From NCBI GenBank assembly GCA_016937215.1, contig JAFGWI010000210.1, positions 1 through 33,031 on the forward strand: a DNA stretch of 33,031 nt, read 5' to 3'. Below, piece by piece: positions 25,400 to 32,674 of the stretch. Each line of letters starts with the position of its first letter. The stretch's first letter is position 1. The notes below the pieces were generated by a model. That model was not told the origin of the DNA and searched no databases. It was given only the letters and a program-made list of their open reading frames with translations. The stretch comes from Spirochaetales bacterium (lineage in GTDB: Bacteria; Spirochaetota; Spirochaetia; SZUA-6; JAFGRV01). The translations under genes were made by a program, and so were the position numbers.

Positions 25400-26057
25400 A
25401 GTTCTGTTTTGCATGGGAGATAATATAGCGGGTAAATTTAAACTTTTCAAGATTAAAACTTCGGCTTGCCGGGGCCTGTTTTTTTTAAATAACGACGGAT
25501 GTTCTTTGCTAAACAAAGATGCTCAATTTAGAACTTATGCCTCTGATAATAATTGGAATTTCAGTATTTGGCTGGCAGATGGCGGCATCTCGCGGCTGAG
25601 CGTTAGGGATTGGAGTTATGGTTTGTCATATTTTTTAAAATGGCAATGCAATGCAAAGCCTTTTTTACCTATATTTCTTGTGATTGTATTGACATATTAA
25701 CCTCCTGTAAAAACTATTTGGCAAAGATTCGGTGAGGCTGAATGTTTTTGTATTTTTCAGTGCTCTGTTGACATGATGGTGTGACTGCCAACGGCAGGGT
25801 GATCAGCATGTTTTTGTACGGGAAAGGATTTTCCGTTCTTTGCCGAAGCTTGAAAGCGACGCTTTCTTTTTTTTGCTTCTCATATATATAAAGAAATAGA
25901 TTCCTGAAAAACGATGTGAAAACAGCCTTTTTCAGAAAAAACATAATGGCAATGTTGTGGTATAAAAACCAAGGGGTTATTTGATTGTTTTTTTTGGAGA
26001 GGACTTTGTGTTCAGGATTGAAATCGGCTTTTTTTTATACCATTTTGCAGGAAAAAG
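25400..26057. other. gene-free border of the accessory island
   Basis: This stretch holds the upstream region of the GT-C gene, a remnant of the hairpin repeat (25598-25616), and an AT-rich tract up to the palindromic array. A 76-codon frame at 25944-25714 on the minus strand is rich in Phe and Lys and lacks family resemblance, so I do not call it. I see no promoter strong enough to report. Confidence 0.5.
25598..25616 (+). repeat. remnant of the GGGCGTT hairpin repeat
   Basis: GAGCGTTAGGGATTGGAG matches the left arm of copies A and C (GCGTTAGGGATYGRAG). Neither the 14-bp stem nor the right end follows, so only a fragment is present. Confidence 0.5.
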
Positions 26058-26227
26058 ACGGCCGTAAATTTTTTAAATTTACGGCCGTAAGTGGTGTTCA
26101 CTTACGGCCGTAACCAGGAGTAAAAGACGGCCGTAAGTGGGTTAACTTACGGCCGTAAATGGGTTGTACTTACGGCCGTAAATGAAACAAAAAGACGTCC
26201 GTAAATTCAGAGTACTTACGGCCGTAA
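26058..26227. repeat. phased array of TTACGGCCGTAA palindromes
   Basis: Eight copies of a 12-bp self-complementary word or a near form have centres at about 26061, 26084, 26107, 26130, 26152, 26175, 26198 and 26221. That is a pitch of 23, 23, 23, 22, 23, 23 and 23 bp. Copies 1, 4 and 7 replace the leading TT by AG and follow an A-tract (AAAAG), so the array is also a 69/68-bp higher-order repeat of three palindromes each, the last unit ending after two. Copy 7 is altered (ACGTCCGT). Several 11-bp spacers have complementary ends (GTG…CAC, ATTT…AAAT), extending the pairing between neighbours. No repeat of this kind occurs elsewhere in the window. Confidence 0.9.
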
Positions 26228-26285
26228 GTTAATCAAGAATGAATATGTTCAGTTCTTTCTATTATATTATTCTTTTTATTTACCT

Positions 26286-26576
26286 GTGAATTATATTAAA
26301 ACCTTCTGTGATGAAATTGACTTTGATTCTGATTTTTTAAATGAGCAAGTGCCTGAAATCAGAAATGAAGCCATTAAAAGGTCGTCAGTAAAAAAGATGG
26401 AAAACGAAAAATCCCTTTCAAAAGCGCTTTTTGCCATCATCGCTTGTCACCAGTCCCTGAATAAAATGATAATGCCCAAGAAAAACAAGCAGAACTTATC
26501 GGGCTGGAGAAATTGCATTTTGAACAAGCACGGCATGTTGAAGAATATAAATGCCTTGAGGTGTTGCCATTCATGA
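26286..26576 (+). pseudogene. frameshifted ORF upstream of hsdM
   Basis: A GTG-started frame of 96 codons (MNYIKTFCDEIDFDSDFLNE…) reads plausibly up to about LNKMIMPKK. It then switches into unlikely sequence (SGWRNCILNKHG). The +2 frame takes over with QAELIGLEKLHFEQARHVEE, running into the hsdM frame. One extra A in the A5 run near 26481-26485 would join the two. I do not recognise the protein. It may be a separate gene decayed against hsdM, or the original N-terminus of a longer fused reading frame. Confidence 0.5.
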
Positions 26577-28114
26577 AAAAAACAGCAGAACTTTGTGGCG
26601 TGACTGAGGCGCGCTTTTGTTACGGATTCAACCTTTTTGTGACCCGCTTCAGGGATTATATTGAACCGGCTTTGAGCGGTGTCGTTGATGCCGCGGAATA
26701 TAAGGATTATATCCTGGTTATGTTGTTTTTAAAATACATATCTGACGTATGGATGGAACATTACGAAATATTAAAAAAGAAATTCGGTGATGATGATGAA
26801 CGAATTCGGCGGCGGCTCGACAGGGAGCGTTTTAAACTTCCAAAGGGTTGTAGTTTTTATGACCTCCATGCACAAAGACAGGCAAATAATTTGGGAGAAC
26901 TGATCAATGTTGCTTTAGAACATATAGAAGATCAGAACAAAGAAAAACTACAAGGTGTTTTTCGAAATATGGATTTCAATTCAGAATCAGCCCTTGGGCA
27001 AACAAAGGACAGAAATGCGCGGCTTAAACATTTGCTTGAAGATTTTAATAGCCCCAAGATCGACCTTCGACCCTCAAGAATAGGGGATTTGGACATTATT
27101 GGTGATGCCTATGAATATTTAATTTCCCGATTTGCGGCAGGTGCTGGCAAAAAGGCAGGTGAATTCTACACACCTGCTCAAGTTTCACAGTTATTGGCCG
27201 AATTGCTTGATCCCCAGCCGGGTGAAAGAATATGTGATCCGGCATGTGGTTCAGGTTCTCTTTTAATCAAATGCGGAAATCAAATAAAGAATAAAGATTC
27301 AAATGATTTTGCATTATATGGCCAGGAAATTAATGGTTCAACCTGGGCCTTAGCCAAGATGAATATGTTCTTGCACGGAATGGACTCAGCCAGAATCGAA
27401 TGGGGTGATACCATCCGCAGCCCCAAATTGCTGGAAAAAGATACCACCATGAAATTTGAGGTAGTAACAGCCAATCCTCCCTTTTCATTGGATAAATGGG
27501 GCATTGAAGAAGCCGGTTCAGATACATTCAACCGCTTTCATAGAGGATTGCCCCCCAAATCAAAAGGAGATTATGCTTTCATAAGCCACATGATCGAAAC
27601 CATCACCCATGAAAACGGACGAGTCGGTGTGGTTGTTCCTCATGGCGTGTTGTATCGGGGATCAAGAGAAGGCAAAATCCGGCAACAACTTATTGATGAA
27701 AACTTGCTCGATGCGGTTATCGGATTACCGGCAAACCTGTTCTATGGAACTGGTATTCCTAGAGCTGTCTTAATATTCAAGCGAAATAGAAAAAAGAAAG
27801 CTGTTCTGTTTATAGATGCCAGCAGGGAGTTCCAGGATGGAAAGAACCAGAACAAATTATCCAATGATAATATTCAGAAAATTGTAAAAACATACCGGAA
27901 GAAAACAGTTATTGATAAATACAGTTATTTAGCAAGCCTGAATGAGATAAAAGAAAATGACTATAATCTTAACATTCCCCGCTATGTTGATACCTTTGAG
28001 GAAGAAGAGCCCGTTGATATTCCGGCTGTTCAGAAAGAAATTGTAAAACTGGAGAGCGAACTTGATGAACTTCGGGTAAAAATGAACGGATATTTGAAGG
28101 AACTGGGGTTTTAA
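26573..28114 (+). CDS. hsdM: type I restriction-modification DNA methyltransferase subunit
   Basis: A 513-aa N6-adenine methyltransferase subunit. SAM-binding motif I is DPACGSGSLL (Asp222) and the catalytic motif IV is NPPF (Asn301), with GEFYTPAQVSQLLAELLDP before them and the coiled C-terminal region KEIVKLESELDELRVKMNGY that contacts HsdS. The start at MKKTAEL has GAGG 11 nt upstream, but the open frame continues further and its first 35 residues do not look like the usual HsdM start. From GVVDAAEYKDYILVMLFLKYISD onward it follows the family. The enzyme works as an M2S complex and needs a specificity subunit; the only hsdS visible is truncated. Confidence 0.88.
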   Translation: MKKTAELCGVTEARFCYGFNLFVTRFRDYIEPALSGVVDAAEYKDYILVMLFLKYISDVWMEHYEILKKKFGDDDERIRRRLDRERFKLPKGCSFYDLHAQRQANNLGELINVALEHIEDQNKEKLQGVFRNMDFNSESALGQTKDRNARLKHLLEDFNSPKIDLRPSRIGDLDIIGDAYEYLISRFAAGAGKKAGEFYTPAQVSQLLAELLDPQPGERICDPACGSGSLLIKCGNQIKNKDSNDFALYGQEINGSTWALAKMNMFLHGMDSARIEWGDTIRSPKLLEKDTTMKFEVVTANPPFSLDKWGIEEAGSDTFNRFHRGLPPKSKGDYAFISHMIETITHENGRVGVVVPHGVLYRGSREGKIRQQLIDENLLDAVIGLPANLFYGTGIPRAVLIFKRNRKKKAVLFIDASREFQDGKNQNKLSNDNIQKIVKTYRKKTVIDKYSYLASLNEIKENDYNLNIPRYVDTFEEEEPVDIPAVQKEIVKLESELDELRVKMNGYLKELGF

Positions 28115-28638
28115 TGATTACCCACGAAAGACACGAAAAAGGGATTGCTGGATGAGCAACACTGGAAAAGGCTACACACTGTGTAGCGGGTTAATGGCTG
28201 ATGAAAGATCCTTAAGCCAAATATTAACTATAATTCAAATGGGGGGAGTCTCCCCTATATTGCATGGGCGAGCAGTGGAGCGAAGCGGAACGACCAGCCC
28301 CTTGCAGCATAGCCCAAACCAGCTTTCAGTATGGTTTGCACTATTCCGCTACCCCCTCTCCTGGGGGCTCCGCCCCCAAACCCCCGTCATGCGCTTGTGT
28401 CGAGTCACCTTTGGGATGGCTCAACTATCATTATTGACAATTGTTAGTGCCTGGATTATGCTGATATTAACAGTACCCGTTGCGCTTAGCATTCTTTGGA
28501 ATGACGCGGACCAGAACGGGTCTTTTTTTTGTTTAAATCTTTTTAAATCTATTAATACCTCTGTGTCTGAATATAAGGCAATTCCTATTGATTCCATAGG
28601 CTTTTCTAAAGGGTTATAAAATTTAACATGAGTATTTA
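28115..28638. other. insertion-like structured DNA between hsdM and hsdS
   Basis: Type I hsdM and hsdS usually touch or overlap; here they are 524 bp apart. The gap begins with ACCCACGAAAGACACGAAAAA and contains a 17-bp perfect hairpin GCTACACA-C-TGTGTAGC (28171-28187). A GC-rich block follows (GGGGGAGTCTCCCC, GAGCGAAGCGGAACGACC, and TGGGGGC-TCC-GCCCCCA at 28372-28388), and then a terminator-like nested stem at 28475-28530. A 155-codon frame crosses all of this but has no domain-like features and is built from the repeats, so I do not call it a gene. It may be a small non-coding mobile element. Confidence 0.6.
28475..28530 (+). terminator. nested-stem terminator-like structure
   Basis: ACCCGTT (28475-28481) pairs with AACGGGT (28515-28521). 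Inside it GCG pairs with CGC and CATTC with GAATG. C plus eight Ts follow at once. This is a compact branched stem with an outer closing helix, more elaborate than a plain terminator, and could be the 3' end of a small RNA. Confidence 0.55.
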
Positions 28639-29085
28639 GTGAGCAAAGTTAATGAGAATAGACCGGGATATAAAAAGACCAAGATTGGGTGGATACCGGA
28701 GGATTGGGAAATTGATAAAATAAAAGATAGTTATTTGATTTGTAATAATTTACGATATCCAATCAATGTTGAAGAAAGAAAAAAAATCCAAGGTGAATAT
28801 CCTTATTATGGCCCAACTGGAATACTTGATTATATCAATCATTATAAAGTTGGAGGAAAATATGTTTTAATAGGGGAAGATGGAGACCATTTCCTAAAAT
28901 ATTATATTAAGCCACAAACAATTTTAGTAATTGGTAAATTTAATGTCAATAATCATGCTCATATAATAAAGGGAAAGAATAAAAACAGTTCTGAATGGTT
29001 CTTTTGGTTTTTTAATCATAGGAATATAGTCCCTTATCTTTCACGGCTAGGAGCAGGTAGATACAAATTAAACAAAGAAGAATAA
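28639..29085 (+). pseudogene. hsdS: truncated type I specificity subunit (first half-TRD only)
   Basis: A 148-codon GTG-started frame that matches the N-terminal target-recognition domain of HsdS: GYKKTKIGWIPEDWEIDKIK, GEYPYYGPTGILDYIN, YVLIGEDGDHFLKY, ILVIGKFNVNNHAHI and YLSRLGAGRYKLNKEE. It stops exactly where the family continues into the PLPPLxEQ conserved helix. The spacer helix, the second recognition domain and the C-terminal conserved region are missing, against about 400 residues in full proteins. No continuation is found in the other frames downstream. With no dimerisation or HsdM-contact helices it is unlikely to work. Confidence 0.85.
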
Positions 29086-29451: not shown

Positions 29452-30192
29452 ATGAATCAATTTGACAAACTGGACCACCTAAAACAAAAACTTGACTCAT
29501 TCAGACCATTACCCGGGAGTGTTGTAAAAAACCTTCACGAAGACCTGGTTCTTCGCTGGACCTATAATTCCAATGCTATCGAAGGAAACACCTTAACTTT
29601 AAAAGAAACCAAGGTGGCCCTGGAAGGAATTACGGTTGGCGGGAAAACCATGAGGGAGCATTTCGAAGCCATCAATCATCGAGAAGCCATTTTCTTTATG
29701 GAAGGCCTGGTGAAAAAGAATGAATACTTATCAGAATGGCAGATCAAATCAATCCATCAACTGGTACTGAAAAACATCGATGATGCCAATGTCGGAGTAT
29801 ACAGAAAAACCAATGTGACGATTTCCGGCGCGGATCATGTTCCGCCCGATGCCTTGCAGGTAGAAAGTCAAATGAAAGGATTTATTGAATGGTATCAAAG
29901 CCATGCAATAAAACTACATCCTGTTGAACGGGCTGTCAGGGTTCATGCTGACTTTATTAGAATACATCCTTTTTCTGATGGTAACGGACGAACATCGCGG
30001 TTATTAATGAACCTGGAACTTATGAAAAGCGGGTTTCCGGCGGCTGTTCTTCCCATCTCGGTCCGTTTGGAATATTATGAAAGCCTGGATCATGCCCATA
30101 CCAAAAATGACTATCAGCCTTTTATCAATCTCATCATCAAAATTGTAGAAGATAGTTTCAAACCCTATTGGCATGCTTTAGGAGTTCAATAA
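29452..30192 (+). CDS. Fic domain protein with N-terminal inhibitory motif
   Basis: A 246-aa Fic enzyme. The active loop HPFSDGNGRTSR begins at His172, the catalytic base, and fits the HPFxDGNGRxxR consensus, so AMP transfer from ATP to a protein hydroxyl is expected. An inhibitory helix motif, SNAIEG (Ser40-Gly45, pattern [ST]xxxE[GN]), lies N-terminal, as in class II Fic proteins that restrain themselves. AAAGGAGG precedes the ATG. The stop overlaps the hsdR start (AATAATG). Fic genes often sit inside type I restriction loci, though their target there is not established. This is the only evidently intact gene between hsdM and the window end. Confidence 0.92.
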   Translation: MNQFDKLDHLKQKLDSFRPLPGSVVKNLHEDLVLRWTYNSNAIEGNTLTLKETKVALEGITVGGKTMREHFEAINHREAIFFMEGLVKKNEYLSEWQIKSIHQLVLKNIDDANVGVYRKTNVTISGADHVPPDALQVESQMKGFIEWYQSHAIKLHPVERAVRVHADFIRIHPFSDGNGRTSRLLMNLELMKSGFPAAVLPISVRLEYYESLDHAHTKNDYQPFINLIIKIVEDSFKPYWHALGVQ

Positions 30193-32674
30193 TGTCCATA
30201 TCAGAATACCGTGAAGATTTCATATCCCTTATTCCGGCTCTTAAACAATTTATCAACCTGGGCTATTCCTATTTGCCCTCTTCTGAAGTCATTGTTCATC
30301 GAAATTTAAAATTATCCCAAGTATTACTCGAAGATATCTTAAAATCCCAAATAAAAAAATTAACAACATTTCCTTTAAAGGAAAACAATACAATTTCTCG
30401 GAAAATAATATAGAAAAAGCAGTAGCTGCCATAAGAGATATCCCCTTTGATAATCTCATTATAACCAACGAGCAGGTCTATGATCTCATCACCCTTGGAA
30501 AAAGTTTTGAACAAACCATCGATGGTTATACCAGAAGCTTTTCTATCGATTATATCGATTGGAAGAATCCTGCTAATAATGTTTTTCATGTAAAGGACGA
30601 GTTTATTGTTGAACGTCGGTACAGTCATCAAACCAGACGGCCAGATTTAGTCTTGTTTGTTAACGGCATTCCTTTAGCTGTAATTGAAGCTAAAAGACCA
30701 GATAAGCTAAAATCAATAAAGGAAGGTATTAGCCAGCAATTACGAAACCAAGGTGTTGATGAAATACCTCATTTGTTTATTTATTCTCAATTAATGCTTT
30801 CAATTAATCAAAACACGGCAAAATACGGCACGATCGGAACTGAGGAAAAATTTTGGTCAATTTGGAAGGAGGACTATTCAAAAGCGGATATCACGAAGCT
30901 AACATCTTCCATAAACAAACCATTAAGCAATCAGGTTATTGACTCATTATTTACAGACCGGAAAGACTGGCAAAAAGAAAAAATGCAGGAAATATGGCAA
31001 AGTGGCGACAGGGTTCCATCAGAACAGGATAAGGCAATATTCAGCCTGCTCAGGCCTGCCCGTCTTTTGGAACCAACTCATAATTTTATTGTTTTTGACA
31101 ATAAAATTAAAAAAGTCCCCCGCTATCAACAATACTTTGCGGTAAAAAAAACAGTCAAAGGGCTAACCGACATTAAAGGTGACTTGCCTCGTGACGGTGG
31201 AGTAATCTGGCACACAACTGGTTCGGGTAAATCCATTACCATGGTTTTATTAGCCAAAGCCATCAGTCTCGAGCCATCCATAATTGATCCAAAGGTCATA
31301 CTTGTGACTGACCGTGTAGATTTGGATGATCAGATTTATAAAACATTTAAAAATTGTGGCAAAGATGTTGAAAAAGCAAGCAGTGGGGAAAATCTGTTTC
31401 GACTCATCGAAGAAAAGAAGGTTACAATTATTACTACGATCATAGACAAATTCGAAGCAGGATTAAGAAAAAACAAATTGAAATCTGAAAGCAGGAATAT
31501 CTTTGTACTGGTTGATGAAAGCCATAGGTCTCAATACGGAGTAGCCCATACAAGTATGAAGCGTGTCTTTCCCAACGCTTGTTACATAGGCTTTACAGGC
31601 ACACCTTTGTTGAAAAAAGAAAAGAGTACAGCTAAAAAATTTGGGGGCTTTATCCATTCATACACGATGAATCAAGCTATTTCCGATGGAGCTGTAACGC
31701 CCCTTATTTACGAAGGTAGAATGAGTGAATTAAGAGGCGACAAAGAGCAATTGGATAAATGGTTTGAAAGAATAACAAAAGACTTAATAGCCGACCAAAA
31801 AATCGATTTAAAAAAGAAATTCCGGCGAGAAGAAGAATTAGCAAAATCAGAAGAAAGATTAAAAGAGATCACCTATGATATTATTCAACACTATACAGAT
31901 AATTTTAAAGATACTGAATTAAAAGGCCAGGTGGCAGTTTCATCACGATTAGATGCCATAAGATATAAAAAATATTTTGATATGTTCGGCAATATCTCTA
32001 CAGAAATTATAATGTCCCCTCCGGACTCACGGGAAGACCATAGCGAAGTGGATGAAGCCGAAATCCCTGAGGTTCAACGATACTGGAAATCAGCTATGAA
32101 TAAATATGGAAATCCAAAAATTTATCAGGATACTATTATAGATAGGTTTAAAAAATCTGATGAACCTGAATTATTGATTGTAATAGATAAACTTCTAACC
32201 GGTTTTGATGCTCCTCGTAATACTGTTCTTTATATAGATAAGCGATTACGAGAACATAATATTCTTCAGGCCATTGCGCGAGTCAATCGTTTATTTGACG
32301 GGAAAGAATATGGCTTGATAATCGATTACCGGGGAATATTCGGTCAACTGAATGAAGCCATCGAATTATACAAACTCCTTGAAGAAGAAGGATTTGACAA
32401 AGATGATATTAATGGAACTGTCGTCAATGTTCTGGAAGAAATAAAGAAACTCCCGCAGTATCATACAGACCTGTGGGAAGTATTCAATAGTGTATCAAAT
32501 AAGAAGGATAAGGAAGCCTTTCAGCTTCATTTAGAACCAGAGAATATTAGGCAGAGGTTCTATGACAATCTTCGAAATTATGCAAATACATTGCGTTTAG
32601 CCCTTTCCAAAACCCCTTTTCAGGAAGAAACATCTGAAGCAATTATAAGGTTAAGTACGGAACAACAGAAATAA
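30192..32674 (+). pseudogene. hsdR: type I restriction subunit with A7 frameshift and lost C-terminus
   Basis: The protein starts MSISEYREDFISLIPALKQF and follows HsdR to ILKSQIKK, where an A7 run (30353-30359) breaks the frame. One extra A would give QIKKINNISFKGKQYNFSEN and restore the family. Beyond it the frame is open to 32674. It carries the nuclease strand TRRPDLVLFVNGIPLAVIEAKR, Walker A TTGSGKS, DESHRSQYG, GFTGTPLL and the late helicase motif ARVNRLF. The frame-corrected length is about 828 aa, against roughly 1000 for the family. It ends at EETSEAIIRLSTEQQK, where the C-terminal HsdM-binding part should begin. HsdR supplies ATP-driven translocation and DNA cleavage. Confidence 0.88.

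Follow-up and report, generated by a model that had tools for sequence, protein, structure and literature searches.

HU-type proteins are the textbook case of proteins that bind DNA with hardly any preference for sequence; HU itself is classically regarded as non-specific, and IHF recognises a single weak consensus. The branch considered here is already known as a family by sequence (HU-DNA_bdg, PF14848; HU-HIG, PF18291; DUF4469, PF14734) and by one structure, that of the solved but uncharacterised homologue PDB 4fmr (E 1e-12), and Burroughs, Aravind and colleagues (Cell Cycle 2017) are said to have proposed that it recognises invading elements. It resembles HU and IHF in the HU fold and in the presumed bending of DNA, but differs from them in that nearly every paralogue has a motif of its own, apparently read by a fused C-terminal domain. 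The family is mentioned in passing for Treponema denticola TDE_2259 (PMC12724145), and in the open-licence literature, to which our search was confined, neither linked palindrome arrays nor a specificity loop are described for it.

Among the described systems, several come close to the arrangement reported here. In Porphyromonas gingivalis a 77-bp inverted repeat is linked to the gene of the HU protein PG0121 (PMC3969353), so that an HU gene is again found together with a palindromic region on which its product may act; however, PG0121 is a short HU-like protein with non-discriminatory binding (PMC3969353), and its single inverted repeat differs from a phased array. Plasmid iterons with Rep, as well as ParB-parS and ParR-parC, are likewise phased private site arrays adjoining the gene of the binding protein, whereas at the loci examined here the protein is HU-type, no replication initiator or partition ATPase was found, and many orthogonal units occur per chromosome. 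REP/REPIN sequences and their RAYT proteins (PMC3116915) also link a solitary gene to its own palindromes, with a motif varying between families, but REPs are dispersed genome-wide while the motifs here stay in the array, and the family protein is not a Y1 transposase. A self-addressed module of HU-type protein and DNA apparently has not been described.

The window, that is, the whole stretch of 33,031 nucleotides analysed here (Spirochaetales bacterium, assembly GCA_016937215.1, contig JAFGWI010000210.1), contains eight palindromes within 26056-26227, whose 12-mers start at 26056, 26079, 26102, 26125, 26147, 26170, 26193 and 26216 and thus follow each other in steps of 23, 23, 23, 22, 23, 23 and 23 bp; the eight-copy array with one 22-bp step that the first-pass annotation had described is borne out by these coordinates. 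Five copies are exact TTACGGCCGTAA, two are AGACGGCCGTAA and one is AGACGTCCGTAA, the palindrome core being ACGGCCGT, with ACGTCCGT in one copy. In copies 1, 4 and 7 an AAAAGAC left edge stands in place of the TTAC arm, and the 69/68-bp super-repeat that had been claimed from this variant edge is indeed present, with TRF giving periods of 68 and 23; against dinucleotide shuffles the array reaches z = 9.9. The features are as follows.

26050..26231, no strand: whole array, 8 copies at 23/22-bp pitch; 92% identical at C221 and 91% at C98
26056..26067, no strand: copy 1, variant half-site AAAAGAC-GGCC-GTAA
26079..26090, no strand: copy 2, TTACGGCCGTAA; one 23-bp unit is missing here in C98
26102..26113, no strand: copy 3, TTACGGCCGTAA
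26125..26136, no strand: copy 4, variant half-site AAAAGAC-GGCC-GTAA
26147..26158, no strand: copy 5, TTACGGCCGTAA, past the single 22-bp step
26170..26181, no strand: copy 6, TTACGGCCGTAA
26193..26204, no strand: copy 7, variant half-site and core change, AGACGTCCGTAA
26216..26227, no strand: copy 8, TTACGGCCGTAA; the three-copy genomic homology stops shortly past it
25696..26049, minus strand: leader and presumed promoter region of an HU-type gene, with ribosome-binding AGGAGG at 25701-25706; homologous to C221 and in part to C98
25669..25695, minus strand: remnant of an HU-DNA_bdg gene, ATG at 25695-25693, MSIQSQEI*; MSIQ matches the C221 paralogue

The co-variation of some spacers noticed earlier is a real pattern, but a separate cause for it is needless, because any row of palindromes at even spacing also has dyad symmetry about the midpoint between neighbouring copies, and this geometry suffices. 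At the paralogous loci C221 and C98 the super-repeat is kept as well, so that it cannot be put down to faulty assembly of a single contig. When single copies were counted across the own genome, exact TTACGGCCGTAA was found in three arrays only, all of fixed pitch, so that neither an array scattered with varied pitch nor a dispersal of the REP/REPIN kind is seen. Scattered single CCAGAGCTCTGG sites, which carry the motif of the C215 array, were also considered and set aside as isolated sites rather than arrays. An exact-pattern scan of 84,980 species genomes and IMG/VR returned unrelated isolated palindromes (Chloroflexota, Saccharopolyspora and others) or nothing, the element was not found in close genomes of the same family, and no Rfam family matches the window array.

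The surroundings of the array have features of their own. A fragment of the hsdM start region at 26478-26682 recurs with 83% identity at G000:C98:7267-7471, about 760 bp beyond the C98 array, so that two of the three array copies lie near an hsdM start. Further on in the window, HsdS-like coding is split into two short frames (28152-29085), a Fic gene (29452-30192) lies between these frames and HsdR, and HsdR itself (30653-32674) apparently has no N-terminus, its HSDR_N match starting no earlier than profile position 133; this restriction locus is possibly in decay. At 2256-2353 and 2509-2580 there are tandem 28-bp repeats TGTCATCCTGAGGAAGCAGTCAAAACCC, and short repeats related to them are found at other places of the genome (C98, C221).

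As for the gene to which the array belongs, the array lies at the outer edge of a segment some 560 bp long (25683-26243) that recurs with 89% identity at G000:C221:160-722 and partly, with 80% identity, at C98:6161-6509, a copy that lacks the end with the start codon and is short of exactly one 23-bp array unit. When the three copies are compared, 9 of 176 positions differ in the palindrome cores and 20 of 151 in the spacers, figures that are descriptive only since the comparisons are non-independent. At C221 an open frame MSIQYYLRQNPLVNGKAFFARTIF... follows on from the segment, read on the opposite strand, and runs off the contig end; this 57-residue fragment matches Pfam HU-DNA_bdg with E 2e-4 (21.9 against a cut-off of 30) and HU-HIG with E 2e-3, both below the curated cut-offs. 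The window keeps the ribosome-binding site, the start codon and the MSIQ of the C221 gene, after which the codons are unrelated and then reach a stop; therefore the window holds a broken HU-type gene plus its upstream region, and judging by the sequence the array belongs to this gene, on the opposite side from the restriction locus. It is probable, to our reading, that the array is the cognate DNA-binding-site array of the HU-type protein encoded next door (PF14848 HU-DNA_bdg / PF18291 HU-HIG with a C-terminal domain). Because the gene in the window is broken, its array could be bound only in trans; the C221 protein is one candidate, provided that its gene is intact. An apparently broken gene like that of the window is also seen in Parabacteroides distasonis NZ_OY725747.1 (L313), where HU and DUF4469 are two overlapping frames followed by a well-kept 23-bp array with z 10.0.

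The same genome carries eight further full-length HU-DNA_bdg genes (C279, C281, C148, C291, C146, C232, C215 and C208), all above the curated cut-off of PF14848 or PF18291, and has at least nine paralogue loci; these paralogues and the protein of locus L226 are members of the family above the Pfam cut-offs. Most of the paralogues have an upstream array of equal pitch and different spelling, for example AAAAGACGGTCGTCTTTT / AAACACGGCCGTGTTT at C281, AAACACTATAGTGTTT at C279 and TTCCAGAGCTCTGGAA at C215, while the upstream arrays of C148, C291 and C208 are less perfect. Since the neighbour genes are unlike from locus to locus, the common unit is the gene-array pair. At the C-terminus L226 matches DUF4469 (PF14734, E 1e-31), and C279, C281 and C291 have no Pfam DUF4469 match. 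Upstream of the HU genes of C279, C281, C146 and C148 there is also a common promoter-like CCACAA..TTTTACAA..TTTTACA with TATATATATG after it, at a distance of about 150-250 bp from the start codon.

The linkage was then surveyed on a larger scale. PF14848 genes are present in 37 of 297 genomes of the class, and relatives of an alignment led by the own-genome proteins in 69 of 393 genomes sampled from the phylum. Palindromic self-similarity was scored against shuffles for all periods between 14 and 60, this symmetrised scan replacing a pure-palindrome detector that was too weak; short tandem repeats were masked as a source of false periods, most of all a TTCACAGC microsatellite that many loci of one family carry. 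In the first set, 22 of 109 upstream regions had z >= 4, 17 of them at period 21-24, against no array at period 21-24 in 160 control chunks from the same genomes. The control of the second set unexpectedly revealed 23-bp arrays downstream of family genes. Altogether a palindrome array of 22-23 bp pitch adjoins 98 of the 153 distinct family genes in one phylum, 25 upstream and 73 downstream; arrays on both sides or inside gene bodies occur in none of the 153, and 55 have no detectable array. The upstream/downstream rule emerged after inspection of part of the data and was then checked in other records; among the upstream calls, a few weaker ones may have arisen by chance. The distance to the start codon is about 10-390 bp for 24 of the 25 upstream arrays, and the downstream class, 73 of the 98 arrays, lies mostly within 60 bp of the stop codon. 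The 98 arrays have a median of 5 copies (range 3-12), and their steps are 23 bp in 247 cases and 22 bp in 161 (408 of 433 together, with 25 others).

As a fresh check in annotated records, eight relatives were examined, and in seven of them the gene is followed by a 23-bp array (z 4.3-11.5), namely in Treponema saccharophilum pTS2 (WP_002704221.1), at four plasmid loci of Parabacteroides distasonis, of which one has a split gene, and in two phage scaffolds; no array was found at T. saccharophilum pTS1 (WP_002703358.1). The Parabacteroides relatives belong to another phylum, Bacteroidota, and the phage scaffolds (L314 and L315; MT836435.1 and MT838150.1) are unverified scaffolds from human faeces. 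Many downstream arrays, for example L094, L127, L182, L247 and L250, have a common centre like GCATAATG between gene-specific arms, which is perhaps a common contact of the HU part. Long microsatellites of the TTCACAGC type are found a few hundred bp upstream of many of these HU-type genes in one bacterial family (L128, L130, L131, L148, L149, L153 and L154) and are possibly a phase-variable tract.

The palindrome is a different one for nearly every paralogue, and even paralogues whose HU domains are almost the same often carry unrelated ones. For example in genome G168, L095 and L126 share 97% of the HU part, yet their palindromes are unrelated (cross-recognition -0.25), whereas L225, L226 and L228, from different genomes and with HU parts only 71-78% identical, have their motif in common. 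Motifs were compared by cross-recognition, since an aligned half-site comparison proved misleading because each array has two dyad axes, and it was dropped. In the best-sampled clade, with 25 non-redundant proteins, each eight-column window was set against motif sharing with identity elsewhere controlled. The peak falls on YANATKQL, residues 213-220 of L226, where the Ig-like DUF4469 domain ends, with a partial r of 0.64 against a permutation maximum over windows of 0.30 (500 permutations) and 0.15 for the best HU-domain window. Within this clade all 8 pairs with loop identity of at least 80%, which come from a few loop families, have a motif in common, against none of 18 pairs with HU identity of at least 85% but loop identity below 50%. 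In the best-sampled clade, then, motif identity goes with the hypervariable C-terminal Ig-like loop rather than with the HU domain. Among the 11 proteins of a second clade this loop again ranks first, though short of significance (p = 0.09), and the association is not seen in the MLEY and YYL clades, where pairs sharing a motif are few.

Where the array lies downstream, the codons for the loop are close to it, so that recombination could exchange both together; in the upstream class about a kilobase separates the loop from the array, and such linkage is much less of a concern. The 16 columns from the loop to the stop codon, which are nearest to the array, add nothing (r 0.07), and this argues against mere recombination linkage, though the linkage is not abolished; the loop codons within motif-sharing pairs show some synonymous changes. 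The motif of the YANATKQL proteins, TTACYNYATARGGTAA, has its exact sites inside the array in 5 of 5 cases in G168, 2 of 2 in G193, 2 of 2 in G525 and 3 of 4 in G068, with one exact site and none in two genomes where a YANATKQL-type loop was not seen. The near-confinement of TTACGGCCGTAA and TTACYNYATARGGTAA to arrays suggests that the own locus is the main evident specific target of the protein.

The best explanation of these patterns seems to be that each family protein binds the array adjoining its own gene. Selection for protein-binding geometry, which had been suggested from the regular pitch in the window, is supported by the 22-23 bp pitch at 98 of 153 loci, by half-site-like deviations and by the tracking of the loop. 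The protein would bind its own array as dimers, one dimer per palindrome, the HU part bending or wrapping the DNA and the C-terminal loops reading the palindrome arms; a pitch of about two helical turns would put the dimers nearly on one face, giving a compact nucleoprotein complex at the own locus, and the diversified loops would stop paralogues from binding one another's arrays. The use of such a complex is most likely local: the protein would either control its own expression or nucleate a private segment of wrapped DNA.

That the protein binds its array merely to repress or activate its own promoter, as a simple autoregulatory operator, we regard as possible, if somewhat doubtful. Autoregulation fits the upstream arrays with their short distances to the start codon, and the genes are solitary, with unlike neighbours and motifs confined to the array. 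However, several arrays of the own genome lie as far as 320-390 bp upstream of the start codon, and the downstream arrays, which make up the majority, are unlike ordinary operators, a place after the stop codon being unusual for an operator of the same gene; that the array is more often past the stop codon therefore suggests a local role independent of the promoter. Alternatively, a wrapped complex on the array might organise or segregate the replicon as a private nucleoid, anchoring or partition site, like ParB at parS. An array on either gene side that tracks protein specificity, members on large plasmids and the number of paralogue loci in the own genome would agree with this, but several orthogonal modules per chromosome (eight detected in G168) are hard to reconcile with it and no partner ATPase was noticed beside the own-genome loci examined, which makes it unlikely.

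It is rather improbable that the gene together with its array makes up a small selfish or mobile unit with the array as the end recognised for copying. The C84, C221 and C98 copies do lie in different contexts with homology ending just beyond the array, gene-less copies exist (C98, and the window with a remnant only), and a relative occurs in two phage scaffolds; yet the array is always one-sided, no recombinase domain was found in the members scanned, and two queries of IMG/VR gave no match. The earlier candidate of a recombination or transposition end is not supported, two-sided arrays being absent from the 153 genes, and no transposase domain is present in the scanned members. Nor does the iteron-like origin that had been considered find a replication gene: there is no initiator gene among the 10 window proteins scanned or beside the arrays examined.

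A multi-site operator of the adjacent type I restriction-modification genes, another early candidate, is very improbable: hsdM (N6_Mtase) starts about 300 bp right of the window array, and past the C98 array, too, there is a fragment with homology to the 5' part of this gene, but the array goes with the HU-type gene on the other side, being conserved together with the leader and the start of that gene, the C221 array, which sits on another contig among other genes, is followed by neither hsdM nor this restriction locus, and restriction genes stand beside the array in none of the own-genome relatives examined. That the arrays are RNA hairpins in the transcript is hardly credible, although perfect palindromes could pair and the downstream arrays are probably within the 3' untranslated region: selection on stems would yield compensation, while at well-defined mirrored positions in the 98 arrays 613 deviations affect a single arm and only 13 are compensatory, against about 12 expected by chance, and no Rfam family is found. 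Deviations left uncompensated in the opposite arm therefore indicate DNA half-sites rather than RNA hairpins; mixed half-sites such as AAAAGAC-GGCC-GTAA and AAACAC-TATA-GACTTTT would break a stem, whereas a dimer able to accept two types of half-site would be expected to show such mixtures, of which copies 1, 4 and 7 of the window are examples.

Returning to binding of each array by the product of the gene beside it, we incline, with some reserve, to the broader view that this HU-type family, found in at least two bacterial phyla, consists of mutually insulated, self-addressed modules, in which each product would bind only the adjoining array, and loop and arms would be rewritten together as a readable protein-loop-to-DNA code in an otherwise sequence-blind fold. 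A widespread and unexplained branch of HU-type proteins thus appears to be highly individual in its sequence specificity. As the target arrays stand beside the genes, the protein-to-DNA code could be read from genomes and tested by loop swaps, so that a family annotated as 'DNA-binding domain-containing' or 'DUF4469' gains a concrete testable target and becomes a potential source of orthogonal protein-site pairs.
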